Source of the DNA: Planctomycetales bacterium
GTDB taxonomy: Bacteria; Planctomycetota; Planctomycetia; Pirellulales; S012-138
Length of the DNA: 32,530 nt
NCBI GenBank assembly: GCA_015488215.1
Contig: WFOE01000252.1
Coordinates: forward strand, 1-32,530
Direction of reading: 5' to 3'
Of the stretch, positions 4,252-30,633 are shown piece by piece. Within the stretch, counting starts at the first letter, position 1. Each line of letters begins with the position of its first letter. The notes beneath the pieces were generated by a model. It searched no databases. It saw only the letters and a list, made by a program, of their open reading frames with translations, and was not told where the DNA came from. Made by a program: the position numbers and the translations under genes.

Positions 4252-4280
4252 TTGACATCTTGATTGAAGCAGATTAGTCT
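4252..4280 (+). promoter_or_regulatory. Candidate sigma70-type promoter for the choloylglycine hydrolase-family gene
   Basis: TTGACA (4252-4257), 17-nt spacer, TAGTCT (4275-4280); the start codon at 4330 is preceded by AGGAGGAGG. Confidence 0.4.
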
Positions 4281-4329
4281 AAACTGGTTTTTTATCTGGG
4301 AACCCCAATCAGATAGGAGGAGGAAAGCG

Positions 4330-5463
4330 ATGTCGTCTAGCAAACAATGGGTGCCTGTTCTGGTTGTTGTCTTGACCATCCTATGCAGTTCCCACAAGGA
4401 ACTTGATGCCTGTACGGCGATAGTGCTCAAGGCCCAAGACGGTGCGGTGCTGGTCGGTCGCACGATGGAATGGGGGACGTTCGACTTGAAATCGCGAGTG
4501 GTCATCGTTCCTCGCGGTTACCGGTTTACGAGCGTCACTCCGGATGGCAAACCGGGAAAAAGCTGGCGCGCAAAGTACGGCGCCGTTGCAATCGACGCCA
4601 TCGAAAAAGACATTTTCATGGACGGCATCAACGAAAAAGGGCTGACGGTCAGCCTGTTGTATCATCCCGGGTTCGCCGAGTATCAGAAATACGATCCGGC
4701 CAGGGCGAGCGATTCGCTGGCCCCGATTCATATGCTCAACTACCTGCTTACCAGTGCTGCCACGGTGGAGGAAGCTCGTGCTGCAATCCAGGCGGTCCGC
4801 GTCGTACCGGTGGTCGAAAAGGCTTTCGGCAGCGGGCCGGCCCCTGGTCACATGCTCGTGTGCGATCGGTCCGGGAAATCGATCGTCATCGAATACCTCA
4901 AGGGAAAATTGAAGATTTTCGATGCTCCGTTGGGTGTTCTGACGAACGCTCCCAGCTACGACTGGCACATCACCAATCTACGAAACTACGTCAATCTCTC
5001 GGTCACGGGACTTCCGTTGAAGAAAATCGAAAATCTAAATCTCAAACCCCTTGGCGGCGGAGCCGGCATGATCGGGTTGCCCGGGGATCATACGCCTGTT
5101 TCGCGTTTCATCCGCGCCGTGGCGTGGACGCAAACGGCCCGACCCCTGGCCGACGGCCCGGATGGAATCTACGAGGTTTTCCGTATTCTTGACAACTTCA
5201 ACGTGCCGCTTGGTGCTTCCGAAGGGCACGGCAAGCTCCAGACGGCTGGGATGCGGAGCTCGACACTCTGGACGGTGGCCTACGATACGAAAAACCTCGT
5301 TGTCTACTACCACACGCAACACAATCGCCGCGTCCGCAAGATTGAGCTGGCCAGGATCGATTTCACCAAGCCAAACGGACTTTTCCGGATGCCACTGGAC
5401 AAGGAACGGAAGCAAGATATCGAGGATGTTACGCCGACAATTCTGCAACCCTCCGGCCGATAA
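4330..5463 (+). CDS. Linear amide C-N hydrolase, choloylglycine hydrolase/penicillin V acylase family (Ntn-hydrolase)
   Basis: Signal peptide followed by DACTAIVLKAQDGAVLVGRTMEWG (candidate N-terminal Cys nucleophile after processing), FMDGINEKGLTVSLLYHP, APSYDWHITNLRNYVNLS. Strong RBS supports the ATG at 4330 within ORF 4264-5463. Confidence 0.85.
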   Translation: MSSSKQWVPVLVVVLTILCSSHKELDACTAIVLKAQDGAVLVGRTMEWGTFDLKSRVVIVPRGYRFTSVTPDGKPGKSWRAKYGAVAIDAIEKDIFMDGINEKGLTVSLLYHPGFAEYQKYDPARASDSLAPIHMLNYLLTSAATVEEARAAIQAVRVVPVVEKAFGSGPAPGHMLVCDRSGKSIVIEYLKGKLKIFDAPLGVLTNAPSYDWHITNLRNYVNLSVTGLPLKKIENLNLKPLGGGAGMIGLPGDHTPVSRFIRAVAWTQTARPLADGPDGIYEVFRILDNFNVPLGASEGHGKLQTAGMRSSTLWTVAYDTKNLVVYYHTQHNRRVRKIELARIDFTKPNGLFRMPLDKERKQDIEDVTPTILQPSGR

Positions 5464-11009: not shown

Positions 11010-14000
11010 ATGCTGCGGAGCGGTTTCCGGGGAAGCTGGCTGTTGCTGCTGGCGGTTTGTTCGGCGGGCGCACTGTACGCCCAACCGCCGAGCGACCCGC
11101 CGCTGGCGTTTCGCCGGGTGCTGGTTCCCCCGGAGCAGAGCGAGCAGTTGCTCCAACGGGAAAAGGAAACGCTGCACCCGGTTCCTCCCCAGCAGTTTGA
11201 AAAACTCCTCTCCGTGGTGCAGAACGCGCCGGTGCTTGCCCGGGAAGCGGTTTCCACTCGCCTGGTCCGCAGCGAACACACGCTGCGCTATCTGCCCGAG
11301 GGAACCTTGCAGGGAACAAGCCGCTTGTGGATCGAACACCAGGCGGCCCACCCGGTGCTGCTCCCGCTTGCGCCGCTGAACGTGGCCCTGCAGGAGGCCC
11401 GCTGGGTCGGCCAGAACCAGATTCCTCGGCCCGCGGTCTTAGGGATAGGACCTCGTGGGCGCGTGCTGCTGCTGGTGGAACGTGGCGGCCAGCTCGAGCT
11501 GCTGTGGCAGTTGCGGGCAAACCGCCGTCTGCCCCAAGGGAGCCGCTTCGTTCTGCAATTGCCTGCCGTTCCCAGACAGACGCTACGCGTACAGGCCCCG
11601 CGAGAAACGCAACTACGCATCGACCCGCCGGCCCTGATTCAACGGGAACCGTCCCCTTCGGCCCAACCAGGTTCCGCTCCGCCGTCGGCCCCGCCGTGGC
11701 AGTGGCGGGTGCAGCCCCCGGCCGTTTCGACCTTGGTGCTAGAGCTGCAAAAGCGCACCCGGCCATCTGACGTCGTACCTTCCTATCGCCAGGTCAACCA
11801 GGTGCAACTGGCCCCCCAAGGGCTTCAATTGATAACCACCGTGCGGTTCCAGGGAACCGTGCCGGAGCCCCCTTTGCAGTTCCGGTTGCCCGAGAACCTG
11901 GAAGTCATGCAGGTGGAACTGGCCGATCAAAAAGTGGCGTTTCGCCGCTTGGGCACGGGGATTCTCCAACTGGACTCTTCCCCCGGACTTTTGCCGGGCC
12001 AGGCGGTCCGCATTCGAGCCGCGGCACCCTGGGAGCTGGACCGTCCGGCCTCGTTGCCCCGGATTATCCCCTTGCAGGCCCGCTGGCAATCGGAGCAGAC
12101 GCACCTGCAACTGCTTGCTCCCCTGGTGCTGAAGCACTGGCGACTGACCCACTGCCGCCAGACGGCCCCCTGGACCGGACAAACCACCACCGTGGAGCAC
12201 TTCGGCCCCCAGGGGAGCATCGAGCTAGTCGTCGGGCAGCCGGAAACTCGCCAGCGTATCCGCCAGGCGGTGCACATCGAAATGGTGCCCGGCACGCTCC
12301 AGGCCGAAGTGGTTCTGGAGGTGCTTCCGCAACAGGGGGAACTGTTCCACCTGGAGGCGGTGCTGGAACCAGGCTGGACTTTGGATCGGGTGGAAACGGA
12401 ACCGGCCCAACTGCTACGCCACTGGCATCTGGAGGAAGGCCGGCAAGGGCGCCGCCGGTTGCATTTGGAACTGGAGCGTCCTTTGTCGCCGGAAAGTCCC
12501 GGGCGGTTTCGCCTGGAGCTGCACCAGCGGCTTATTCAGCGTCGCGGGGCGCTGCCGCTGAAGTGGTTGTGGCCGCTGACATTTTCGGACCAGCAATATC
12601 CCGAGGCCCGGTGGCTGGCGATCCGGTCCGGGCAGGGGGGGCCGTTGCGCGTGCGCAGCCCTTTGCTTCACCGCCCGTTGCAGGACGACGAACGCAACCA
12701 GGTGAGCCGTCTGTTGCCGGAACTTTCCGGTCAGGACCTGGTGTGGCGGCTCCCTCCCGGCGAGCTGGTGGGCGAGGCGTTCCTGGTCCCCGCCAGGACG
12801 GAGTTTCTGCTCTCCGTGGAGCAACAGCTCCGGCTCCGCGGGAGGCAATGGACTCTGCTGGCCGAGCTGCGCCTGGAGCCCCAGAGCGGGGAAGTCGAGC
12901 ACCTGGAGCTGTTGGTCACCCCCCAGGCTTCGCTGCCGGAACTGCTAGGCTCGGGCAGCGAGCCGCCGCGGCTGGTCCCGTTGCCTGCCGATCCGGACCG
13001 GCCCGACGGAACGGTCGGGCGGTTTCGCCTGGTGTTCCCGCAACCAGTCCGCACCCCCACCACGCTTCAGCTCCGCTGGCACGGCAGGTGGAACAAGCAC
13101 TCCCCTTTGCAAGTGCCGTTGCTGGGCGTAGCCAACGGGCAGGCTGGCCAGGCGAGCATCCGGCTGCTTGCCCGAGGCTGGCTGCCCCTTTCCTGGAAGA
13201 CCAGCGCGCTGATTGCCTCCACCGGCGAAGTTTCCGCCGGCCGGACCAACCCCTGGCGGCAGTTGGCCGCCTGGAGCTACGATCCCCGCCGCCTGGCCGA
13301 ACAACCGGAACTGTTCTCCCTGATCCTGCAGCGCGAAGACGAACTCTCCTGGCAACGTCCAGTCGTCTGGCATCTGCAGGTGGATACACTTTGGGACGCC
13401 CCGGCCCAGCATCTGGAACACCGCTGCCGCTTGTTGCTGGACTATCCGGCATCGGGCCGACTGGAGTTCTCGCTCCCGCCGGGGGTGGAAGTAACCGCTT
13501 TGAGCGTCGATGGCCGCCCCCAGCAGTGGCACTTGGAACAGCGACGGCTTCACGTTCAAGTGCCCCCCGGCAAGGCTTTCGGCAAAGTGATGCAGTTGGA
13601 GTTCTGGCTTCAGAGCCGCTGGAGCGCCGGGGGATTTTGGGAAGAGCTTGGCCCACCTGGGCTGAAGTGCGACTACCCGATCCTCGCCGCCCGGTGGACG
13701 CTCTGGGGGGACGACCAGTTGCAACTGCCCGGGCCCACCCAGGCTTCGCTCTGGCAGCGGTGGTTTGGCCCTTTGGCCGGCGACGCGTTCGGACCGGAGA
13801 CTGCCGGAACCGGCCGGTCCGCTCTGCCTAAGCCTGCCACCACCCCGGGGGCTTCTCATTTGGGCCGGGTACGCCATGTGCTTCACTCGCAGCTTGGTTC
13901 GGCGGCGGGCCCCCCGGCCGATTGGGGAAGCTGGCTGCTCCGGGCCGGACAAACTCTCGGCCAACAAGACATCTCCTTACTGATCGACCGGGAAGCCCTG

Positions 14001-17000
14001 GCCCGATCCGGCCTGGGACCGCGGACCGCATTAGCTGCCGGCAGCCAGCAGCGGGAGCTTACCCTGGCACAATTGGAACAGCAGTACGGGCTGAAGCTCG
14101 TACCCGTGGGGGGGTACGTGTTGCTGACTACGACCCGGGCGGAGATTCCCCCGCGGTGGCTTTCGTCTCAGCTCCCGAAAGACCAGAAGCCGGGGGTGCT
14201 TCCCGCCCACTGGGTTTCCCCCGCCCTGTGGCTTTGGTTTTCCCACACTTCGGCAAAACAACCGTGGTCCTGGGCGGTCGGCTCTCCGCAAGCGGCCTTC
14301 CCGTTTCGCCGCATCGCCCAGATGGATTACGCCCCCGGGAAGGAGCTGCCTCGGCTGGCATTGGCTTGGGCTCCCTGGTGGCGGCTGAGCGGCTGGGTGC
14401 TGGGGCTGGCCCTGGGGCTGGGGCTGCTGTGGGCCGGCAGGCGCTACCCACGCGCCACCGCTGCAGCTTGCGTGCTGTGGCTTTGGGCGGCCACCGTGGC
14501 GCCGAGTCCCTGGTTGTTCGTTACCCAACGTGCCAGTTGGGGCGTGTGGGCGGCGATTGCCGCTTTGTGGATTGTGGTCCATCGCCAGCGTCAATTGCCC
14601 GCCCAGCAAAACGCGGCGGCTCCGGCCCCGAGTGCGGCCATGCTGCTGCTGGCACTAGGGTCCCTTGCCGCCTGGCACACGCTGGCTCAAGCGCAACCGG
14701 CCGGCAACGACGGCAAAGGGAAGGTCTATTCGGTTTACATTCCCGATGAAAAGCAGCCCGAGTATTACTTCGTGCCCGAAGAGTTCTACCGCTACCTGGT
14801 GGAACAAGCGGATCGGCTGAGCCGGAAACCGCGAGCCTGGTTGTTGCAACGAGCCAGCTATCGGGTCATGTTGCCTGCCGGAACGGAAGACCCGGCCGAG
14901 GTACTGGCCTTTTACTATCTGCGCGTGTTCGGGGTGCAGGAATCGCCGGTGCTGGATTTCTCCAAGCTGCCGGAAGCGCTGCGTCCGGAGCGGGTTAGCC
15001 TCAGCGGCATGGACGTCCAGGCCCAATGGAACGACCAAGGCCAGTTGGTCGTCCCGGTGCCAGAACCTGGCACGTACGAGCTGGAGCTGAGTTTCCGTCC
15101 GCCGGTGTTCCGCAAGGACGGCGTGGCACAATTGCAACTGCCGATTCCTCCGGCCCTTTCGGCCCGGCTGGAAGTGCTGGCCGGCGAAGAGCCTGTGGCC
15201 CTGGAAGTCGCCCCTTCGCTGGGCCAGGTGCTCCCGCAGGCCCGGGGGGAGTTGTGGCGCGGGGAACTGGGTCCCGTGGGCCAGTTGGCCATCCGCTGGC
15301 AAGCCGCCGGACGGCAGCGCCCCGCGCGTCTGGAAGCGGATCAACTGCTGTGGCTTCGGGTGCATCCCGGCTCGGTGGTACTGGAAACGCAGTTGCACTG
15401 TCGGCCGCTGGATACTCCGTTGCAGCAGGTGGAAATCTGGGTGGACCCGTGGTTGCAGCTCATCCCGCCAGAATCCCCCCTGGTGGAGCGGTTTGAATGG
15501 GTCCCCTTCGACGCAGAAGAACCGCCCGCCGATGCCCCGCTGCCGGGCGTGAAACTGCTCCGGCTCCAGTTCCGGGAACCGGTGGCCGGTCCGGTCGAAG
15601 TCCCGCTGGCGTTCGTGCTCAAGGACGCCTCGGGTGTGGGCCGCTGGGGTTTCCCTCTGGTGCAACTGCGGCGCACCGAGTCGCTTCAGTACTGGATCGC
15701 CGTCTCGGTGGACCGCACGCTGGATTACAAGGAGTCGGGTCGGCAAGGGCTCCAACCGCTGGAGGCCGAAACATTCACCGCATTGTGGAACCAGGTGGGC
15801 GACCTGCCCGCGGTCAGCTACGATTGCGGCAACCGCTACCCGTTCGTTTATTCGCTGGTGACACGCCCCCGCTCGGCCTTGCCTCGGGTGGAATCTTCCC
15901 ATTTCTGGAGTCTCTATCCGGGCTACGCCGAGCTGGTCTTTCAGGCCCACGTGGAATCGCCTCAGGCGGCCACGCTCTGCTACCGTCTTCACGTACCGTC
16001 CGAGCTCCAGCTTCAAAACGTCCAGTTCCGAACCCGGCAATCCTGGAAGACGGCGGCTTGGGGGCGTTGGGGGCCCGAAGTGGTCGTCTGGCTGCCGGAA
16101 GCCCAGCCTGCGGTGGATATTCGCCTGCGGGGGTGGATGCGCATACCCCCCCAGGGGCGGTGGCAAGTGCCTGCGGTGGACCTGGTGGACACCCCTTCGG
16201 CACTACGGCGGATTCGCATCGACCACCACGGCACCCTGCTGGTCAAGCCCCGCTCCGCTTCACACGAAAAACCAACCGCGGCCCGGTCCTCGGATGGCCC
16301 TCTGTTCCCGGCCGCCCAGTGGACGCTGGAACCGGACCAGCCCTGGCCCCAGGTGGAACTGCAACCGAACCGCCCGCAGGTCAGCGGCCAGCTCGACGGT
16401 GCGGTTGTGCCGAATCCGCCGGGGCAGCCGTGGCGGATCGACTACCGGTTCAACTTCCAAGTCCACCAGGGCGTGTTGCCTTCGATCCGATTCACCGCCC
16501 GCCACGTGACCCGGGAAGACGTGCAGCTCCTCTCGCCCGGACGGTTGGAGTTCTGGTCCCTTGCCGGGCAGGACGACGCGCTGGTTTACTACCCGGAAGA
16601 ACCGTTGCGTGGTCGGGAGCAGGTTCACCTGGAGATTCGCTGGCAGCCCCTGCCGGAAAAGGACTCGCCCTTGCCGCAGCTCGTTCCGCAGCAAGTGCGC
16701 CCTTTGCAAACCTATCTGCTCATCCCTAAGCTGAACGCCGACTCCCCCTGGCGATGGCGGCTGCGCGGTCTGGCTCCGCTGGCCTTGCAAGGGCGGCCTC
16801 TGGCGCCGGTGCCTCGGCCCCGGGCGTTGCGAGCTCGGAACCCGCGGTGGCAATTGGTCCTTCAGCCCCGGCCCCTGTCCCGAACTCCTTTGCGGCTGCT
16901 GCTGGCCCACCATCGGCTTGCTTTGGACCGGACGGGCCAGATGGTCCAACACAGCCTGCTGTTGCTTTCGTCTCCGGCTGGAGGTACCTTCCTGCTGGAA

Positions 17001-17855
17001 GTCCCCGACCGGGCCGAAGTGCTTTCCGTGCGACTGGCAGACCAGCCGGCACTTTGGCAACAGAAAAACGACGGCACCGTGGCGGTTCGTGTTCCCGCCG
17101 GAGTGTTGCCTCAACTTGTGCAAGTGGTGGCTCGGCTCGGGCCGTTTCCACTTCCCGGGCCGGGCCGGTCCGCTTCCCGGGAAGTCCCCTTCGTGCGGCC
17201 ACAAGACCTGCCTTGCGAATCGGTCGCCTGGAGTGTGGTGGTCCCCTGGGAACTGCGACCACGCATCCCGAGTCTTTCCGAAGCGTCGGAGCCTTCGCTG
17301 TACCGCGCGTGGTGCAATGTGCTGGCGGACCAACTGAGCAACGTCCCGGCCGGAAACCACCTGGGACTTCAGCGCTGGTGGGACGCACTGGCCGGGGCAA
17401 TCCCCCTGGCGCCACTCCCCCGGGAACTGAAAGAACCTCAGGCCCTGCCCTTGCCGTGGCACGAGCCTTGGCTGGCCCAACAAACGTTGCAGCAGGCTCT
17501 CCAGGAACACAACCTCCGCTGGCCGAGCCTGGCGGCTTCGGTCTTTCCGCTTCGGGACGACAGGTCTCCCCTGGTGGCGGTAAACGCTTGGGGCGAAGGC
17601 CCCCTGACCCTGACCATTGAACACCCCGCTGAACGCCCCAGCCCGGGTGGCCCGTGGTGGCTGTGGCCCTTGGGCCTGTTGGGCCTGATGGCGGCCGTGG
17701 TGTTGCCTGGTCGGGTTCCGTTGTACGGACCGCGATGGCTGCCCTGGCTGCTGGCCTTGGCCGGGTTGGTCTGGTTGATGGGCCTGCAACCGTGGGTCCT
17801 CGGCGTGGCGCTGATCGTCGCCGCCGTGTTTCTGGCCTGGCAAGCTCCGCCGTAA
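11010..17855 (+). CDS. Giant (2281 aa) secreted/membrane protein of unknown function, apparent fusion of two modules related to the upstream gene product
   Basis: N-terminal signal WLLLLAVCSAGALYAQ; internal TM cluster around 14390-14595 followed by a second signal-like segment AAMLLLALGSLAAWHTLAQAQPA (from in-frame ATG 14640); final C-terminal TM cluster WWLWPLGLLGLMAAVVLPG...WLPWLLALAGLVWLMG...VLGVALIVAAVFLAWQ. Confidence 0.8.
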   Translation: MLRSGFRGSWLLLLAVCSAGALYAQPPSDPPLAFRRVLVPPEQSEQLLQREKETLHPVPPQQFEKLLSVVQNAPVLAREAVSTRLVRSEHTLRYLPEGTLQGTSRLWIEHQAAHPVLLPLAPLNVALQEARWVGQNQIPRPAVLGIGPRGRVLLLVERGGQLELLWQLRANRRLPQGSRFVLQLPAVPRQTLRVQAPRETQLRIDPPALIQREPSPSAQPGSAPPSAPPWQWRVQPPAVSTLVLELQKRTRPSDVVPSYRQVNQVQLAPQGLQLITTVRFQGTVPEPPLQFRLPENLEVMQVELADQKVAFRRLGTGILQLDSSPGLLPGQAVRIRAAAPWELDRPASLPRIIPLQARWQSEQTHLQLLAPLVLKHWRLTHCRQTAPWTGQTTTVEHFGPQGSIELVVGQPETRQRIRQAVHIEMVPGTLQAEVVLEVLPQQGELFHLEAVLEPGWTLDRVETEPAQLLRHWHLEEGRQGRRRLHLELERPLSPESPGRFRLELHQRLIQRRGALPLKWLWPLTFSDQQYPEARWLAIRSGQGGPLRVRSPLLHRPLQDDERNQVSRLLPELSGQDLVWRLPPGELVGEAFLVPARTEFLLSVEQQLRLRGRQWTLLAELRLEPQSGEVEHLELLVTPQASLPELLGSGSEPPRLVPLPADPDRPDGTVGRFRLVFPQPVRTPTTLQLRWHGRWNKHSPLQVPLLGVANGQAGQASIRLLARGWLPLSWKTSALIASTGEVSAGRTNPWRQLAAWSYDPRRLAEQPELFSLILQREDELSWQRPVVWHLQVDTLWDAPAQHLEHRCRLLLDYPASGRLEFSLPPGVEVTALSVDGRPQQWHLEQRRLHVQVPPGKAFGKVMQLEFWLQSRWSAGGFWEELGPPGLKCDYPILAARWTLWGDDQLQLPGPTQASLWQRWFGPLAGDAFGPETAGTGRSALPKPATTPGASHLGRVRHVLHSQLGSAAGPPADWGSWLLRAGQTLGQQDISLLIDREALARSGLGPRTALAAGSQQRELTLAQLEQQYGLKLVPVGGYVLLTTTRAEIPPRWLSSQLPKDQKPGVLPAHWVSPALWLWFSHTSAKQPWSWAVGSPQAAFPFRRIAQMDYAPGKELPRLALAWAPWWRLSGWVLGLALGLGLLWAGRRYPRATAAACVLWLWAATVAPSPWLFVTQRASWGVWAAIAALWIVVHRQRQLPAQQNAAAPAPSAAMLLLALGSLAAWHTLAQAQPAGNDGKGKVYSVYIPDEKQPEYYFVPEEFYRYLVEQADRLSRKPRAWLLQRASYRVMLPAGTEDPAEVLAFYYLRVFGVQESPVLDFSKLPEALRPERVSLSGMDVQAQWNDQGQLVVPVPEPGTYELELSFRPPVFRKDGVAQLQLPIPPALSARLEVLAGEEPVALEVAPSLGQVLPQARGELWRGELGPVGQLAIRWQAAGRQRPARLEADQLLWLRVHPGSVVLETQLHCRPLDTPLQQVEIWVDPWLQLIPPESPLVERFEWVPFDAEEPPADAPLPGVKLLRLQFREPVAGPVEVPLAFVLKDASGVGRWGFPLVQLRRTESLQYWIAVSVDRTLDYKESGRQGLQPLEAETFTALWNQVGDLPAVSYDCGNRYPFVYSLVTRPRSALPRVESSHFWSLYPGYAELVFQAHVESPQAATLCYRLHVPSELQLQNVQFRTRQSWKTAAWGRWGPEVVVWLPEAQPAVDIRLRGWMRIPPQGRWQVPAVDLVDTPSALRRIRIDHHGTLLVKPRSASHEKPTAARSSDGPLFPAAQWTLEPDQPWPQVELQPNRPQVSGQLDGAVVPNPPGQPWRIDYRFNFQVHQGVLPSIRFTARHVTREDVQLLSPGRLEFWSLAGQDDALVYYPEEPLRGREQVHLEIRWQPLPEKDSPLPQLVPQQVRPLQTYLLIPKLNADSPWRWRLRGLAPLALQGRPLAPVPRPRALRARNPRWQLVLQPRPLSRTPLRLLLAHHRLALDRTGQMVQHSLLLLSSPAGGTFLLEVPDRAEVLSVRLADQPALWQQKNDGTVAVRVPAGVLPQLVQVVARLGPFPLPGPGRSASREVPFVRPQDLPCESVAWSVVVPWELRPRIPSLSEASEPSLYRAWCNVLADQLSNVPAGNHLGLQRWWDALAGAIPLAPLPRELKEPQALPLPWHEPWLAQQTLQQALQEHNLRWPSLAASVFPLRDDRSPLVAVNAWGEGPLTLTIEHPAERPSPGGPWWLWPLGLLGLMAAVVLPGRVPLYGPRWLPWLLALAGLVWLMGLQPWVLGVALIVAAVFLAWQAPP

Positions 17856-22220: not shown

Positions 22221-23249
22221 ATGTTTTTCGCACAATCAAATATGCAGGCTTCCGTTGGAGTGGGAAAGCCCGGCGGGCGCGCTCCGGCCCCTCGGGCACA
22301 GCCCCTGTCGCGCAGGCGGCTTCTGAGGACCGTGGCTGCTGCCTCGCTGGGCACCTGGTGCGGCTGTATGCCGGGCTTGGGGGCCTCCAGTCTCCCGGGC
22401 AGCAACGGCGACCGCCCCTTGTGTGTGGCCACCACCGGAATCGTGACCGACCTGGTGGCCCAGGTGGCCGGGGGCGAGTGCCGGGTGCATGCGCTGATGG
22501 GCCCGGGCGTGGACCCGCATCTGTATCGTCCCAGCCCGGGCGACGTGGCCCACCTCAGCGCCGCGGCGGTGGTCTTTTACAACGGCCTGCACCTGGAAGG
22601 GAAAATGGCCCAACTGCTGCGGCGGCTCGGCCGGCATCGCCCGGTGGTGTCCCTGGGCGAGCACCTGCGGCGCCGCTGCCCGGAACGACTCATCCCGGTG
22701 GGAGAGGGGGAGTACGATCCGCACATCTGGTTCGATGTGGAGTTGTGGAGCCGCACCCTTCCGGCGGTGGAACGCGCCTTGGTAAAGTTGATCCCCGAAC
22801 AGGCCCAGGCACTCCGGCGGCGGGCAAGCAGCACAAGCCGCCGTCTCCGGCAGCTTGATCGGTGGTGCCGCGAGCAGTTGGCCCGCATCCCCCCCCGGGG
22901 GCGCGTGCTGGTTACAGCCCACGACGCCTTCCGCTACTTCGGCCGCGCCTATGGCATCCAGGTGGTGGGCATCCAGGGCGTAAGCACCGAGTCCGAAGCC
23001 GGTATTGCCGACATCAATCGCCTGGTGCGGATGATTGTCGGCCGCAGGATTAAGGCGATTTTCGTCGAAAGTAGCGTTCCGGAACGCCACGTGCACGCCA
23101 TTCTGGACGGCTGCCGGGCAGCCGGGCATCCGGTTCGCCTGGGCGGCCAGTTGTACTCCGACGCCCTGGGACCACCCGGTTCCGGAGCCGACACCTACGA
23201 GCAAATGGTCCGGCATAACGTGCGGACCATCGTACAAGCCCTGAGCTGA
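22221..23249 (+). CDS. Metal ABC transporter substrate-binding protein (TroA/MntA/ZnuA family)
   Basis: [22 protein letters not shown] export/lipoprotein-like signal; [84 protein letters not shown]; no His-rich loop. Confidence 0.9.
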
Positions 23250-23253
23250 AACG

Positions 23254-24090
23254 ATGCTCAAGCGTCCCGACTCCCCGCAAGCGGAAGCGGAACCCGGCCG
23301 GCAGCCCCCCGCCGGAACGGGCCCCGGCGCGCCGGTGCTGGACGTGCACGACGTGACCGTGGCTTACCATCGCCGCACCGTGTTGTGGAACGTGGACTTT
23401 ACGCTGCAAAGCCCCTCGCTGGTGGCCGTGGTGGGACCCAACGGGGCGGGCAAGAGCACCCTGCTGAAAGCCGTGCTGGGGCTGGTGCCGCTGGCCTCGG
23501 GCAGTGTGCGGTTCTGGGGAGAACCCCTGGCCCGATGCCGCCGCCGTGTGGCCTATGTGCCGCAGCGGGAAAGCGTGGACTGGGATTTTCCCGTCACCGT
23601 GCGCGACGTGGTGCTGATGGGCACCTACGCCCGCCTGGGCTGGTTCCGGCGGCCCGGCCCGGACGAACACCGCCTGGCCCAGCAGTGCATGGAACAACTG
23701 GGCATTGCCCACGTGGCCGACCGGCAGATCGGGCAGCTTTCCGGCGGGCAGCAGCAGCGGACGTTCCTGGCCCGGGCCTTGGCCCAACGGGCCGACATGT
23801 ACTTCATGGACGAACCGCTGGCCGGGGTGGACGCGGCCACCGAACGGGTGGTGTTCGACCTGTTCAAGCAACTGCATGCCCAGCACAAAACCGTGGTAGT
23901 GGTGCACCACGATCTGCGTTCGGTTCCGGAACACTTCGAGCACGTGTTGCTGCTCAACACCCGCGTGGTGGCCTTCGGTCCGGTGCAGGAGGTGTTCACG
24001 CCGCAGAATCTGCAACAGACCTACGGCGGGCGGCTCTCGGCCCTGGAACAAGTGGCCGAGGCGCTGCGCCGCACCGAAAAAACCCCGTGA
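23254..24090 (+). CDS. Metal ABC transporter ATP-binding protein (TroB/MntB/ZnuC-like)
   Basis: Walker [10 protein letters not shown], signature LSGGQQQR, Walker B MYFMDEP, switch His VVVVHHDL. Confidence 0.93.
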
Positions 24091-24093
24091 ACC

Positions 24094-25263
24094 ATGTGGA
24101 GCTACAACACGCTGGTCGTGCTGGCCGGAGCGGCTTCGCTGGGGTTGCTCTGCGCGCTGGTGGGCACGTTCGCCGTGTTGCGCCGCCAGGCCCTGCTGGG
24201 CGATGCCCTGGCCCACGCCACGCTGCCGGGACTGTGCCTAGCGTTTCTGCTGCTGGGGGTCAAGCATCCCCTGGCCATGCCCGCCGGGGCGCTGGCCACC
24301 GGACTGCTGGGCGTGCTGGCCGTGGCCGCTTTGCAGCGCTGGGGGCGCCTGCGTCCCGACGCTGCCCTGGGCGTGGTGCTGAGCGTTTTCTACGGGGCCG
24401 GCGTGATGCTCAGCCGCGTGGTGCAAAACCACACCACCGCCGGCAGCAAGGCCGGACTGGAGCGATTCCTGCTGGGTAGCGCCGCCGGCATGGTCTGGCA
24501 CGATGTTGCCTTAATCTCCCTGCTGGCCCTGGCCGTGGCCGCCGTGATCGTGCTGGGCTATCGTGTCTGGAAAGTGATGAGCTTCGATAGCCAGTTCGCC
24601 CTGGCCCTGGGCCTGCCCGTCTCCTGGCTCGACGGGCTGCTGATGGCTCTGGTGGCTTTGACCGTGGTGGCCGGGCTGCCGGCGGCCGGGGCCGTGATGG
24701 TGGCCGCGCTGCTGGTGCTGCCGGTCGTTTCGGCCCGATTGTGGGTTCACCGGCTGGAAACGCTCGTTGTGCTCTCTTGCATTCTAGGCGTGGCGATGGG
24801 GGCGGCCGGCGTGCTACTCAGTGCCAGCCGGGAGCGGCTTCCCACCGGGCCGACCATCGTGCTGGTGGGCGGAGCGTGCTTTGCCGTGTCGCTGGTCGCT
24901 TCGCCCCAACGAGGGCTGGTGGTGCGGTTGTGGCGGCTGGCTCAGTTCCGACGCCGTCTGGCCCTGTTCCAACTGCTGCAGACCGTGGGCGAGCTTCAGC
25001 AGGAGCAAGCCGGTCGGGCCGTAGCGCTTTCCCAAGCGGCAGCTCGGCTGGGATGGCCCCCATCGCGCACCGCCGCACTTGCGCTTCAGGCCCGATTGCA
25101 GCACTGGCTCGCCCAGCCGGAGGAAAAGCCGGAAGAAAAGCACCTGGAGTTGACTCCCGCGGGCCGGGAACAGTTGGAACGGCTCCAGCAACAACTGGCC
25201 CCCGAACCCGGCAGCCTGTCCGTTTCCGAAAATGCCCCCGACGGTCGAGGAAGTGCCCGATGA
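24094..25263 (+). CDS. Metal ABC transporter permease (TroC-like) with C-terminal winged-helix-like tail
   Basis: Multi-TM ABC-3 family pattern (LLCALVGTFAVLRRQALLGDALAHATLPGLCLAFLLLG); C-terminal ALFQLLQTVGELQQEQ...SQAAARLGWPPSRTAALALQARLQHWL...LELTPAGREQLERLQQQL. Confidence 0.88.
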   Translation: MWSYNTLVVLAGAASLGLLCALVGTFAVLRRQALLGDALAHATLPGLCLAFLLLGVKHPLAMPAGALATGLLGVLAVAALQRWGRLRPDAALGVVLSVFYGAGVMLSRVVQNHTTAGSKAGLERFLLGSAAGMVWHDVALISLLALAVAAVIVLGYRVWKVMSFDSQFALALGLPVSWLDGLLMALVALTVVAGLPAAGAVMVAALLVLPVVSARLWVHRLETLVVLSCILGVAMGAAGVLLSASRERLPTGPTIVLVGGACFAVSLVASPQRGLVVRLWRLAQFRRRLALFQLLQTVGELQQEQAGRAVALSQAAARLGWPPSRTAALALQARLQHWLAQPEEKPEEKHLELTPAGREQLERLQQQLAPEPGSLSVSENAPDGRGSAR

Positions 25264-26747
25264 GCACCTGGCCTGTGGTGCCCGCAGAGCCGATTCCGCT
25301 GCAACCGACGCTGGCCCCGCGCAGCCTGGGCCGCCTGGGCCTGGCCGCGGCCGCGTTGCTGGCGTTGTTGCTCGGGGGGCCAAGCGCCTGGGCGCTGGGC
25401 TGGATTGGTTCCTGGCCGGGACCGCTGGCCGCCATCGCCTGGTCCACCGTGGGGCTGGCGCTGCTTTGCAACACGGCCTGTGCGCTGCTGGGCACGTTTC
25501 TCGTGCTGCGGCGGATGAGCCTGCTTAGCGACGCGATCAGTCATGCCGTGCTGCCCGGGCTGGTGGTGGCGTTTTTGATCACGGGCCGCCTGGACCCTTG
25601 GGCCATGCTGGCCGGGGCGGTCGTCGTGGGCATGCTCACGGCCACCGGGGTGCAAGCCGTGCGGCAACTGGCCCAACTGGCCGACGATGCCAGCATGGGC
25701 GTGGTGTATCCGGTGCTGTTTGCCCTGGGGGTGGTGCTGCTTTCCCGATACGCCCATCACGTCGACCTGGATACCGACTGCGTGTTGTTCGGCCTGCTGG
25801 AGCTGGCGGCGCTGGATACGATCCGCCTGGGCACCTGGGAGCTTCCCCGCAGCCTGCTTACGCTGGCTCCGGCGCTGCTGGGCGTGCTGGGATTTCTGCT
25901 GCTGGCCTGGAAAGAGCTGCTGGCCGCTTCGTTCGATCCGGCCATGGCCGCCGCGGCGGGACTTCGCCCCCGGTTGATGCACTACCTGCTCATGGCCCTG
26001 GTGGCCACGGTAGCCGTGGCCAGTTTCGAGGCCGTCGGCTCCATTCTGGTGGTGGCCATGATGATTGTGCCCGGGGTGTGCGGGCGGCTGCTCAGTGATC
26101 GGGTGACCGGCACGCTCTTTTGGGCCGTGCTGGTGGCCTGGGTGGCGGCCCTGTGGGGATACGCTCTGGCCGCGTGGTTCAACACCACGGTGGCTGGTTC
26201 CATGGCCGTGGCCGCCGGCGTGGTGCTGGTGCTGGTGGTGCTGCTCAGCCCCCGGCACGGCGTGCTGGTGGATGCGGCCCACCGGCTGGGCACGCGATTG
26301 ACCATCGCCGGCGAAGACCTGCTCAAGTGGCTGTTGAAGCAGGAACCGGGCTACGAGCGGCTCGACTCCGCCCCGCAAGGTTCCGTCCCGCCGGCCGAGG
26401 CGGCTTGCGTGCCTCGAAAACACTGCCTGGAACACCTGGGTGGCCGCTGGCAGGCCCGGCTCGTGTTGTGGCTGCTTGGCCGCCGCGGATGGATCGAGCA
26501 GGCCTGGGACCGCGTGTGTCTCACTCCCGCCGGCCGGCGGCGAGCCTGGCACCTGGTTCGCGCCCACCGGCTCTGGGAAACCTTTCTGGAAGAACACCTG
26601 CAACTGGCCCCGGACCACGTGCACGAACCGGCCGAACAACTCGAACACTTCCTCGGCCCCGGCCTGCAACAGGAACTGGAACAACAGCTCCAGCGGGCCT
26701 ACGATCCCCACGGCCGCAAAATCCCCAAGCAAGCCGAAGAACACTAG
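25260..26747 (+). CDS. Metal ABC transporter permease (TroD-like) fused to a C-terminal DtxR/MntR-type metal-binding regulator domain
   Basis: ATG at 25260 overlaps the upstream TGA (ATGA). ABC-3 permease TMs (LLCNTACALLGTFLVLRRMSLLSDAISHAVLPGLVVAFLITG); C-terminus LTPAGRRRAWHLVRAHRLWETFLEEHLQLAPDHVHEPAEQLEHFLGPGLQQELEQQLQRAYDPHGRKIP matches the DtxR/MntR dimerisation/metal-binding region. Confidence 0.88.
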   Translation: MSTWPVVPAEPIPLQPTLAPRSLGRLGLAAAALLALLLGGPSAWALGWIGSWPGPLAAIAWSTVGLALLCNTACALLGTFLVLRRMSLLSDAISHAVLPGLVVAFLITGRLDPWAMLAGAVVVGMLTATGVQAVRQLAQLADDASMGVVYPVLFALGVVLLSRYAHHVDLDTDCVLFGLLELAALDTIRLGTWELPRSLLTLAPALLGVLGFLLLAWKELLAASFDPAMAAAAGLRPRLMHYLLMALVATVAVASFEAVGSILVVAMMIVPGVCGRLLSDRVTGTLFWAVLVAWVAALWGYALAAWFNTTVAGSMAVAAGVVLVLVVLLSPRHGVLVDAAHRLGTRLTIAGEDLLKWLLKQEPGYERLDSAPQGSVPPAEAACVPRKHCLEHLGGRWQARLVLWLLGRRGWIEQAWDRVCLTPAGRRRAWHLVRAHRLWETFLEEHLQLAPDHVHEPAEQLEHFLGPGLQQELEQQLQRAYDPHGRKIPKQAEEH

Positions 26748-26788: not shown

Positions 26789-27802
26789 TTACGTGCCCGA
26801 CGTGCCGGGGCCTTTGTAGAGCCGCTGCCCCAGCACGTTCTTCTTGCCCGTGACTACGCTGTCGGAAGTGTCTTGTTCCAGGATGTCGTAATAGGTGGCC
26901 ACGCGGGCGTCGATTTCGTCGGCGTGGTGCACCAGCAGCGCTTCGAGCGTCATTGGCGGCTTGGGCGAACCCCATTCCGGCAACCGCTGGTGCGAAATGA
27001 TGATGTGTTCCAGTTGCAACAACAGCTCGGCATCCAGCGGCACCTGGGCGGCCGCTTCGCGCACCATGTCGCGGCCCTGGAGCACGTGCCCAATCAGATG
27101 GCCCGCCGGCGTGTATTCGGCTCCGGCTGGGTTGGCTTGCAGTTCGCGCAGTTTGCCGATGTCGTGCAGCACCGCTCCGGCCAGCACCAGGTCGCGGTTG
27201 ATCCCCGGCTGCCGTCCGGCGTAGGCCCGGGCGTATTTGTCGGCCAGAAAAAGCGCGTTGTAAGCCACCGAAAGCACATGCTCCAGCCATCCGCCCAGGT
27301 AGGCATGATGGATACGGGAAGCCGCCGGCCAGAAGATGAGCTGCTCCCGATGCCGCTCCAGCAGCCAGAGCACCAGTTGTTTCAACTGCGGGTGGCTCAT
27401 CTGTTGCTGGACCAGCGAAACCAGCTCTTGGTACATCTCCTGGCCGCTACGCGAGGCCACTTTGACCAGCCGCGCCGGGTTGAACCCGGCCTGCTCATCC
27501 TCGGGCACCACGGGGCGAATGTTGTGCAGGTCCAATTGCGGGCCGAACTCCGTTTCCCGATAGGTGGCCAGCAGCTTGTAGAATTGGCCCGGCTGCCACT
27601 GGTCGCGGCAAGGGGCGTACCACGGGGAATCGTTCCACACGGGAAAGCTCACCTCCCGGTGGCGATCCCGAAAACTGACCCGATAGTACGGCCGCCCGTC
27701 CCGAGTGGTCATGGCTTCCTTGCCGCTTAGCAGGGCGTAAAAGACGCCCTGCTGGCCGGGCTGAAGCTGGTTCAGTTCACAAGTGGCCGGTTGCGCGGTC
27801 AT
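26789..27802 (-). CDS. OB-fold/HD-domain protein, YhaM-like 3'-5' exoribonuclease family
   Basis: N-terminal OB-like GKEAMTTRDGRPYYRVSFRDRHREVSFPVWND; HD motif LAGAVLHDIGKLREL, HHAYLGGWLEHVLSVA, LLVHHADEIDARV. Confidence 0.8.
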   Translation of the reverse strand: MTAQPATCELNQLQPGQQGVFYALLSGKEAMTTRDGRPYYRVSFRDRHREVSFPVWNDSPWYAPCRDQWQPGQFYKLLATYRETEFGPQLDLHNIRPVVPEDEQAGFNPARLVKVASRSGQEMYQELVSLVQQQMSHPQLKQLVLWLLERHREQLIFWPAASRIHHAYLGGWLEHVLSVAYNALFLADKYARAYAGRQPGINRDLVLAGAVLHDIGKLRELQANPAGAEYTPAGHLIGHVLQGRDMVREAAAQVPLDAELLLQLEHIIISHQRLPEWGSPKPPMTLEALLVHHADEIDARVATYYDILEQDTSDSVVTGKKNVLGQRLYKGPGTSGT

Positions 27803-28086
27803 GACAGAAACTCGGCAAATGGCAGAGTGCGAAACTCCCCGGCGTGCTTGCCCCAAGACGCCCGCTGCGGCGAAGGCTCACCTGCCGCCAGGCACACATC
27901 GCCCCTGGAGTTCATTCTAGAAAAAAGCCACCGCGGGACCAAACCGGCGCGGCGGTGCTTGCTTGGCCATCAGTTTGGTTTGCTGCGGGAGCTGGTCGCC
28001 GGGAACGCCCCGTCCGGGACGCTTTCCCGACCACAGCGGCCACAAGGCCCGGGCACAGATGTCAGGCCACCGGCTTGCGGCGAGTG

Positions 28087-29226
28087 TCAGGGTTTTTCCG
28101 GAAACTGTTTTTCCAGCAGTTTCCACAGCATGGGGCCGCGAGCGGCCGTATGGACGACTTTGCCCTGCCGGTCCACCAGAATGGGAGCGGGAATGGCCCG
28201 GATGCCGTACTTGCGGGCCATGGGATGCATGCCTGCGGCTTCCTCGTCGAACAAAGTAGCCCAGGGGATGTTGTGCTTTTCCAGAAACTCTTCCAGCGCC
28301 TCGCGGTCCTGGTCCAGGCTGATTCCCACCACTTCGAAGCCGCGGTCGTGGTACTTTTCGTAGGCTTTGAGCACGTTGGGGATTTCCCGCACGCAGGGAC
28401 CGCACCACGTGGCCCAAAAGTCCACCAGCACCACTTTGCCGCGGTACTGTTTCCAGTCGAAGGGTCGGCCATCCACCGTGGTCCCTTCCAGCTCCAGCGG
28501 TTTGCCGACCAGATGGGCCAGCGGGGAGTCGGACTGTTTGAGAATCTTGCGTTTGGCATACCGGGCCAGTTTCTTGTCCTTGCTTTGGGCAAAGAGTTTG
28601 CCGAACGTTTCGTAGAGCTCTTCGGCCGCGTCGCGGTCGCCCAGAGAATTGATCAAACCCACGATCTCCGAAGCCAGATAGAGATGCCGTCCGGTCAGTT
28701 CCGTTTCCTGGCAGTATTTGCGCAGATGCTCGAACAGCCGGGCGATTTCAGCGTCGTCGAGCCGTCCGGCCCGGGCGGCATGCACCTGTTGCTCCAACAG
28801 ATGCAGGCGGGCACGTTGGGCCACCGCGGGCACGGAGGACTTGCGCAGTCGGGCGGCCCAGGTGTAAAGCTGCTGCTGGGCCTCGGCGTTGCCAGCGACG
28901 GCCTGATCGTGCAACACGTCCATCAGGGCAATCGCGGCGGTTTTTTCCTGGCTGGGATTCGGTTTGTTTTCCAGCACCCGAGTGCAAGCGTCGAGCACCG
29001 CGGCCGCGAAGCCGGGCCGGTTGCGGATGCTTTTGGGCTTGCGTTGCATCCGCTCCAGATAGCGCACCAGTTGGTCGTTATCCAGACCGGGCGGAGCCAG
29101 GTAGGGGTTGACCCGCTCGGGCTGCTGGGCCGGGGCCCCCTGGGGCGAAACCGTCCCCAAGAAACCCAGCGCCAGACCTGCTAGGCCCAACAGCAACGCG
29201 ACCTGAAAAAGCACTCGGGAGCGCAT
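28087..29226 (-). CDS. TlpA/ResA-like thioredoxin-fold protein with N-terminal helical domain
   Basis: Signal peptide MRSRVLFQVALLLGLAGLALGFLG; KVVLVDFWATWCGPCVREIPNVLKAYEKYHDRGFEVVGISLDQD (CxxC). Confidence 0.88.
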   Translation of the reverse strand: MRSRVLFQVALLLGLAGLALGFLGTVSPQGAPAQQPERVNPYLAPPGLDNDQLVRYLERMQRKPKSIRNRPGFAAAVLDACTRVLENKPNPSQEKTAAIALMDVLHDQAVAGNAEAQQQLYTWAARLRKSSVPAVAQRARLHLLEQQVHAARAGRLDDAEIARLFEHLRKYCQETELTGRHLYLASEIVGLINSLGDRDAAEELYETFGKLFAQSKDKKLARYAKRKILKQSDSPLAHLVGKPLELEGTTVDGRPFDWKQYRGKVVLVDFWATWCGPCVREIPNVLKAYEKYHDRGFEVVGISLDQDREALEEFLEKHNIPWATLFDEEAAGMHPMARKYGIRAIPAPILVDRQGKVVHTAARGPMLWKLLEKQFPEKP

Positions 29227-29325
29227 TGTCGTTCCTCCTTGGCATGGGAACGAATGGCTGGCAACCAGGCGGCGGTTTTCTGCAATCGAAGTTATCCGAT
29301 TCGGCCGGCGCAAGCCAAGCGAAAA

Positions 29326-29375: not shown

Positions 29376-30317
29376 CTACTCGTCTTTATTCTCGTCCTGG
29401 GAAGGCGAATCTTCGGTCTGTTCGGGAGACCCAAGCAGTTCTTCCAGTTTCTTGGCCAGGCGCTGGCCACGAACGGCCAGGGCCAGTACCTTGCCATCCT
29501 TGCCGATGAGGATCGTGTGCGGAATGCCGGTGACGCCCAACTGTTCGGCCAACGGATGGTTCCAGCCGCGGTTGTCTTCGGCGTGGTTGAACAGGTTCGG
29601 CCAGGGGATTTCGTTTTCTTCGATGAACTTTTCCAGGGCCTCCTTGTCGGTATCGAGGCTCACGCCCACCACCTCGAATCCCTTGTTGTGGTATTGCTTG
29701 TAGAGCTTGAGCACATTGGGCAGCTCGCGGCGGCAGGGACCGCACCAGGTGGCCCAGAAGTCCACCAGTACCACCTTGTTCTTGTACTGGTTCCAGTCCA
29801 GCTTGGTGCCATCGACCAGGGTGCCTTCCAGCACCAGCGGTTTGCCCAGGATGCCCAGCCGTTTCTTGGCCGCTTCGTGCATGTTTTTGGCCAGGGTGGC
29901 CAGGCGTTTGTCCGGGTGGTTGGCAAAGGTGGCTTCCAGCTTTTTGTACACCTCAAGCGCCCGGACGTGATCGCCGCGGATTTCGGAGATTTGGGCCACC
30001 AGCATCCCCACCCGCAACTCCCGCAGGCTCAGGTTCGGCTGCTTGAACAGTTCGTCCAGAGCGTCGTTCATGGCCTGGGCCGCCTTGGCATCGCCCTGGA
30101 AAGCCTTTTGCAAGTTCTGGAACACCTTGCGGGCAAGCGCGGCTTTCTTCAGCGCTGCGGCCTTTTGGGCGTCTTCCTTTTCCTCTTTGTCCTTTTCTTT
30201 GGCCTGAGCCGGAGAAGGCTGCTTCGGTTCTTCCTGCTGGGCTGGGAGCGTACCGGGCAGCAGCATGCAGCAGGCCAGCAACAAGGCCAACAATCGCAAT
30301 GGTACAGGCAGATTCAT
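29376..30317 (-). CDS. TlpA/ResA-like thioredoxin-fold protein, paralogue of the adjacent gene
   Basis: Signal peptide MNLPVPLRLLALLLACCMLLPGTLPAQ; charged KEKDKEEKEDAQKA linker; KVVLVDFWATWCGPCRRELPNVLKLYKQYHNKGFEVVGVSLDTD. Confidence 0.88.
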   Translation of the reverse strand: MNLPVPLRLLALLLACCMLLPGTLPAQQEEPKQPSPAQAKEKDKEEKEDAQKAAALKKAALARKVFQNLQKAFQGDAKAAQAMNDALDELFKQPNLSLRELRVGMLVAQISEIRGDHVRALEVYKKLEATFANHPDKRLATLAKNMHEAAKKRLGILGKPLVLEGTLVDGTKLDWNQYKNKVVLVDFWATWCGPCRRELPNVLKLYKQYHNKGFEVVGVSLDTDKEALEKFIEENEIPWPNLFNHAEDNRGWNHPLAEQLGVTGIPHTILIGKDGKVLALAVRGQRLAKKLEELLGSPEQTEDSPSQDENKDE

Positions 30318-30633
30318 GGCTTTCTCCTGAAGGTGAAGGGGCGAGGACCCGTCCCGCCCCGGGAACGCCACCGTTCCGTAGCCGGGCCAGGCTGCCCGAA
30401 GTACAAAACCACATTTCACAAACTGCGGCCCCAAACCGTCGAGAGACTGTTCGACAATTCGCCTACCTCGCCACAGGGAAACGGAAACGCTTGCCGGTTT
30501 CCCTCGGGTCCAGGGCTCGTTTTTCGACAGCTCTCGAAACAGTTCCATCGTAGTACAACGCCGCCGGGCAGGCCAGCGATTCTGAGGTTTGCCCTTCGTG
30601 ATACGTTTTTCCGGCCGCGGTGGTTCGGTCAAG

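Follow-up and report, generated by a model that had tools for sequence, protein, structure and literature searches.

A DtxR-type, putatively metal-binding tail without a recognizable DNA-binding sequence on the second permease of a planctomycete ABC-3 importer

Fusions of a permease with a DtxR-type domain are already known from Chlamydia, in which YtgC-YtgR (CT069) is a fused protein that is cleaved and acts as an Fe2+-dependent DNA-binding repressor (PMC5599777, PMC7755916), and a review has reported permease-DtxR fusions in 11 phyla (PMC5599777). The initial annotation of the locus described here had supposed that similar fusions might be on record, as indeed they are; its further remark that it knew of no characterized mechanism is answered by the same Chlamydia system (PMC5599777). 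Published fusions have been read as repressors awaiting cleavage, by extrapolation from Chlamydia. In two other importers, MetNI and ModABC, cytoplasmic substrate-binding domains stop the importer (PMC10710835). Our literature search, which most subscription papers lay outside, found no paper on DNA-blind DtxR tails of importers.

We analyzed a window (the whole stretch of DNA studied, 32,530 nucleotides) from a planctomycete-like genome (G000) of 4.29 Mb and 96.5% completeness. On its forward strand lies a tight operon (22221 to 26747), with genes separated by 3 to 4 bp or overlapping, that encodes a ZnuA/TroA-type substrate-binding protein (P0003, 22221 to 23249; PF01297, E value of 2.6e-73), a TroB/MntA-type ATPase (P0004, 23254 to 24090; PF00005, E value of 5e-29), and two ABC-3 permeases. 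The first permease, P0001 (24094 to 25263, 389 amino acids), has its ABC-3 domain at residues 9 to 268 (E value of 7e-52), and the second, P0002 (25260 to 26747), starts within the end of P0001, overlapping its stop codon. The presence of PF01297, PF00005, and two copies of PF00950 within one operon identifies a TroABCD/ABC-3 importer. The top NCBIfam matches of the operon proteins were a mixture of Zn (AztA/B/C) and Mn models, all under the cut-off, including the Mn transporter ATPase model that ranked first for P0004.

Within the ABC-3 transmembrane domain of P0002 (25458 to 26240, by alignment to 7kyp), D91 and H95 align with Asp46 and His50 of PsaC, which coordinate Mn (PMC11779740). The corresponding transport-site residues of P0001, whose predicted model also matches PsaC (7kyp), are D37 and H41, and this Asp/His pair was invariant in both fusion alignments. 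The importer thus shares with the Mn importers PsaBC and MntBC both the permease fold and the Mn-coordinating pair; however, the two permeases of those systems are identical and lack a sensor tail, while here there are two different permeases, each of them tailed. YtgC-YtgR, encoded in an operon like troABCD, likewise has a DtxR-type domain at the C terminus of an ABC-3 permease, although YtgR is carried by the first permease, is cleaved, and binds DNA, whereas in the window the tail with the metal domain is on the second permease.

Elsewhere in the window, an HD-domain protein (PF01966) is encoded downstream of the operon on the opposite strand (26789 to 27856). Two adjoining reverse-strand frames (28087 to 29313 and 29376 to 30632; the Pfam scan covered the first) have a similar layout with a thioredoxin/AhpC-like C-terminal part and are perhaps a tandem duplication. 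We also found a phage-integrase family protein (317 to 1234, reverse), a choloylglycine-hydrolase family protein (4264 to 5463, forward), and a forward open frame of 2,281 amino acids with no Pfam match (11010 to 17855).

P0002 is a single protein of 495 amino acids in which the ABC-3 domain (residues 67 to 327, E value of 1.5e-46) is followed by Fe_dep_repr_C (PF02742, residues 422 to 490). The latter match is far from chance, scoring 70.7 bits where the cut-off is 27 (E value of 1.1e-19), and the P0002 tail was the sole PF02742 match in the DNA of the whole genome (E value of 1.6e-20). As the initial annotation had it, the C-terminal sequence is continuous and in frame with the second permease, and the regulator-like domain does lie within the region that it gave, 26300 to 26747; the tail begins slightly earlier, near 26262. 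Its first part, comprising helix 1 and a winged helix without the DtxR recognition helix, spans 26262 to 26522 (from the model, the absence of a PF01325 match, and column statistics), and the DtxR/MntR metal-binding and dimerization domain follows at 26523 to 26729. A sequencing frameshift, which the annotation had named as a possible refutation, and a chance fusion were both ruled out by 94 homologues sharing the same fusion.

Alignment with IdeR and structures of the MntR type placed DtxR residues H79 and E83 at H436 and E440 of P0002 (26565 to 26579) and H98, C102, E105, and H106 at H455, E459, E462, and H463 (26622 to 26648), which bears out the His and Glu residues picked out by eye in the annotation. 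Its suggestion of a Mn-type ligand set also stands, as Glu459 occupies the position of DtxR Cys102. It had overlooked D353 (26316 to 26318), which by our own sequence-based placement is the predicted seventh ligand, a helix 1 residue corresponding to MntR Asp8 and DtxR Met10; with it, all seven expected ligand positions are filled. Among 95 D-type (second permease) homologues, H436, E440, and H463 were found in all and H455 and E462 in 94, the less constant columns being D353 (88/95) and E459 (65/95). Ligands that are near-invariant in 95 homologues from several phyla make it highly improbable that the tail is a functionless, decaying relic. The column entropies argue in the same direction, with a mean for the metal domain (1.80 bits) close to that for the permease (1.72 bits) and well below that for the winged-helix core (3.10 bits), although this contrast alone is weak evidence, given that the stand-alone controls are less divergent. 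What speaks for decay is the state of the tails on the first, or C-type, permease, which are variable and partly lost, that of the window included.

The AlphaFold model of P0002, built on the 95-sequence alignment, had a pLDDT of 88.6, with most of the tail above 90. The helix at residues 335 to 360 corresponds to helix 1, residues 412 to 421 form the wing, and only about 5 residues separate the last transmembrane helix from helix 1. In Foldseek, the permease part matched PsaC (7kyp), whereas the matches of the tail were DtxR, IdeR, and manganese repressors, along ca. 143 columns across both domains, with root mean square deviations of 2.6 to 3.0 Å for the better matches to two-domain DtxR and TM scores of up to 0.76 by target length. 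The tail is therefore predicted to keep the two-domain DtxR fold, and its putative metal-binding domain, coming after the last transmembrane helix, is predicted to be cytoplasmic. It resembles the stand-alone regulators TroR, MntR, and DtxR in the metal-binding and dimerization domain, the ligands, and this two-domain fold, but differs from them in being fused to a permease and in having an unrecognizable DNA-binding sequence.

The Pfam scan found no match to the DtxR DNA-binding model (PF01325) in P0002, so the N-terminal half of the regulator is degenerate, as had been noticed in the annotation, and this became the main point of our analysis. We based the argument on the Pfam contrast with controls from the same genomes rather than on the entropies. 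All 95 D-type fusions and 64 of the 78 C-type fusions matched PF02742, while PF01325 was matched in none of either set (0/95 and 0/78, judged at an E value of ≤0.01 over the 173 fusions of alignments A2 and A3). Ten further fusions from a phylum survey behaved in the same way (PF02742 in 10/10, PF01325 in 0/10). Conversely, the controls, one stand-alone DtxR from each of ten genomes also bearing fusions, matched both models in 10/10 cases (PF01325 E values of 1e-19 to 4e-9), and so did five stand-alone DtxRs from the same order. The recognition helix SPGTVTSM was nearly invariant in the stand-alone proteins, whereas the tails had no counterpart to it and a scrambled sequence in that region. 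This asymmetry, with the metal domain matched and the DtxR DNA-binding model unmatched in the fusions, is the new result. Taken together, sequence and models support the view that the tails sense metal and have lost DNA binding of the DtxR type, although a DNA target of an unrecognized kind is possible, given that the winged-helix fold is still kept.

The asymmetry bears directly on whether the tail works like YtgR, that is, whether it represses its own operon in a metal-dependent way, either cut off by a protease or still tethered. Such a mechanism has a characterized precedent in Chlamydia trachomatis, where the fusion is cleaved and YtgR shows Fe2+-dependent binding to the ytg promoter, and fusions have been reported in as many as 11 phyla (PMC5599777); the predicted winged helix of the P0002 tail and the lack of a detected stand-alone DtxR in the window's genome would fit it as well. 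We nevertheless consider it quite unlikely here. Compared with YtgR by description only, tails of the P0002 type are without a recognizable DtxR DNA-binding sequence (PF01325 in 0/173 fusions against 10/10 stand-alone relatives), the model leaves only those ca. 5 residues between membrane helix and tail, and, among the matches listed, a dedicated and intact DtxR accompanies the fusion in most relatives, often adjoining the operon. Upstream of the operon we found no DtxR-like palindrome, only one of 12 nucleotides at 83%, a weak test. Thus, of the two roles offered in the annotation, control of transport fits best, and the membrane-bound repressor is disfavored.

The operon with a fused second permease was present in most genomes of the same order, and a scan of genome contigs gave 80 named loci, mainly from Planctomycetota, with others labeled Verrucomicrobiota, Latescibacterota, Bacteroidota, Ignavibacteriota, and Spirochaetaceae and one bin each labeled Gemmatimonadota and Deltaproteobacteria; the metal-domain tail was not on all of them, the labels of metagenome-assembled genomes are partly doubtful, and the search patterns were biased to this clade. 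The survey of taxonomic spread that the annotation had called for thus found fusions in Planctomycetota and several further phyla. Placement of the tail varied among relatives: some carry it on C or on D alone, others on both, and others again on a single permease. A tblastn search against plasmids returned matches to the permease part only.

Across 294 Planctomycetota genomes, the PF01325 matches listed fell in stand-alone frames, and the four listed in frames longer than 400 amino acids (G291, G214, G052, and G278) had no permease in the frame. Likewise, the survey of Verrucomicrobiota, outside which Chlamydiae possibly fell, gave no PF01325 in frames of at least 400 amino acids among the matches listed. 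In 63 Planctomycetota genomes with a listed fusion (a tail match in a frame of at least 400 amino acids), 57 also had a listed stand-alone PF01325 gene, which lay within 10 kb in 31 and elsewhere in 26; the other 6 had none among the matches listed. Relatives of the window's importer, unlike YtgC-YtgR, therefore usually have a separate DtxR. In L187, L210, and L211, the gene order is A-B-C-D-R or the end of it, and tails and R coexist. The initial annotation had described a TroD-TroR fusion. Read as a joining of D with the R of the same operon, this was ruled out, as relatives carry both, and in the tree the metal domains of the tails stand apart from those of the stand-alone proteins. The search for a stand-alone regulator, which it had also proposed, detected none in the incomplete assembly of the window's genome but did so in most fusion-bearing relatives, including two genomes of the same genus (L065 and L066). 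The tail could then be the sole DtxR-type sensor there, but one Fur-family gene is present, and the assembly is incomplete. Two other proteins with DtxR-type parts were noticed: a 359-amino-acid frame with a membrane segment and a DtxR-type tail, adjoining a stand-alone DtxR in a bin labeled Ignavibacteriales (L205, 1959 to 3035), and a stand-alone protein of the DtxR type that has two stretches of FeoA (L152, 501 to 1538), for which PF01325 scored 20.2 against a cut-off of 26.

The frequent company of an intact DtxR raises another explanation, namely, that the tail pairs through its dimerization domain with the stand-alone protein. The transporter would then capture the repressor or let it go, depending on metal or transport state. 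The retained domain is precisely the DtxR dimerization domain, and the neighboring genes in 31/63 genomes, among the matches listed, are compatible with such pairing. Still, a partner was not detected in the window's genome and, among the matches listed, was missing from 6/63 fusion genomes, and the domains of tails and of stand-alone proteins now form distinct, diverged groups; sequestration is accordingly improbable. In the metal-domain tree, which has few columns (71) for 74 rows and no established root, C tails grouped together (98/92), as did stand-alone DtxRs (99/96), with D tails between them and single-permease tails closest to the stand-alone group. As far as these sequences can tell, the pattern is consistent with a single old fusion and a later duplication of the permease.

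P0001 also has a tail, which the annotation had missed. It consists of a winged helix only, with no metal-binding and dimerization domain (24916 to 25197; AlphaFold residues 275 to 368, pLDDT mostly >90), it had no Pfam match, and its fold matches were weak and mixed, of MarR and DtxR type. The metal domain present on the first permease in 64/78 relatives is gone from it, making a heterodimeric pair of metal-binding tails impossible here, which counts against the sensor reading given below. Other C-type tails had the variant motif VDRDADxIEH or had lost the metal site. Short tails of ca. 90 to 100 amino acids, apparently a winged helix that lacks the metal domain and resembling that of P0001, were seen in L132, L133, and L139 (both permeases) and in L145 (second permease), in bins labeled Omnitrophota, Anaerolineales, and Rubrobacteraceae.

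Kept ligands together with the lack of a recognizable DNA-binding sequence in relatives suggest that the pump senses metal and switches its own activity, not genes. We favor, with modest confidence, a Mn/Fe importer of the TroABCD/MntABC type whose second permease has an ancient DtxR-derived cytoplasmic sensor regulating transport directly; that the tail gates transport, that it inhibits, and that the metal is Mn or Fe are parts that we infer. At high cytoplasmic Mn2+ or Fe2+, metal would occupy the tail site and fix the arrangement of helix 1 relative to the dimerization domain, as well as the pairing of the tail with its partner tail or the ATPases. The metal-loaded tail would hold the transporter in a non-cycling state, a transinhibition as in MetNI and ModABC, and a separate DtxR or Fur would take care of transcription. 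The kept ligands, the absence of PF01325, the intact DtxR usually found alongside, and the position of the tail near the membrane count for direct sensing. The proposed action is that of the MetNI C2 domain and the ModABC regulatory domain, in which a substrate-bound cytoplasmic domain stops cycling; against it, those domains have unrelated folds and are on the ATPase, while the P0002 tail has a metalloregulator fold and is on the permease, where its gating is presumed. Conserved ligands close to the membrane would be equally compatible with a relay or buffer for metal leaving the channel, or with a stabilizer of the complex, neither of which would regulate transport. DtxR sites bind metal for sensing and not for handing it on, and a full two-domain DtxR fold exceeds the needs of a buffer, which makes this role unlikely.

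More broadly, and tentatively, at a little short of an even chance, these importers may form an ancient and widespread class with paired DtxR tails that gave up DNA binding and became an asymmetric, cytoplasmic metal-sensing feedback brake, a separate DtxR controlling the genes. A metal site that is kept, a DNA-binding sequence that is lost, and an intact repressor alongside suggest that in this group, at least in Planctomycetota and several other phyla, it is the pump that is controlled directly. If true, a transcription-factor fold would have been reused as a transporter brake, offering a handle on how cells halt Mn or Fe uptake within seconds rather than via transcription.
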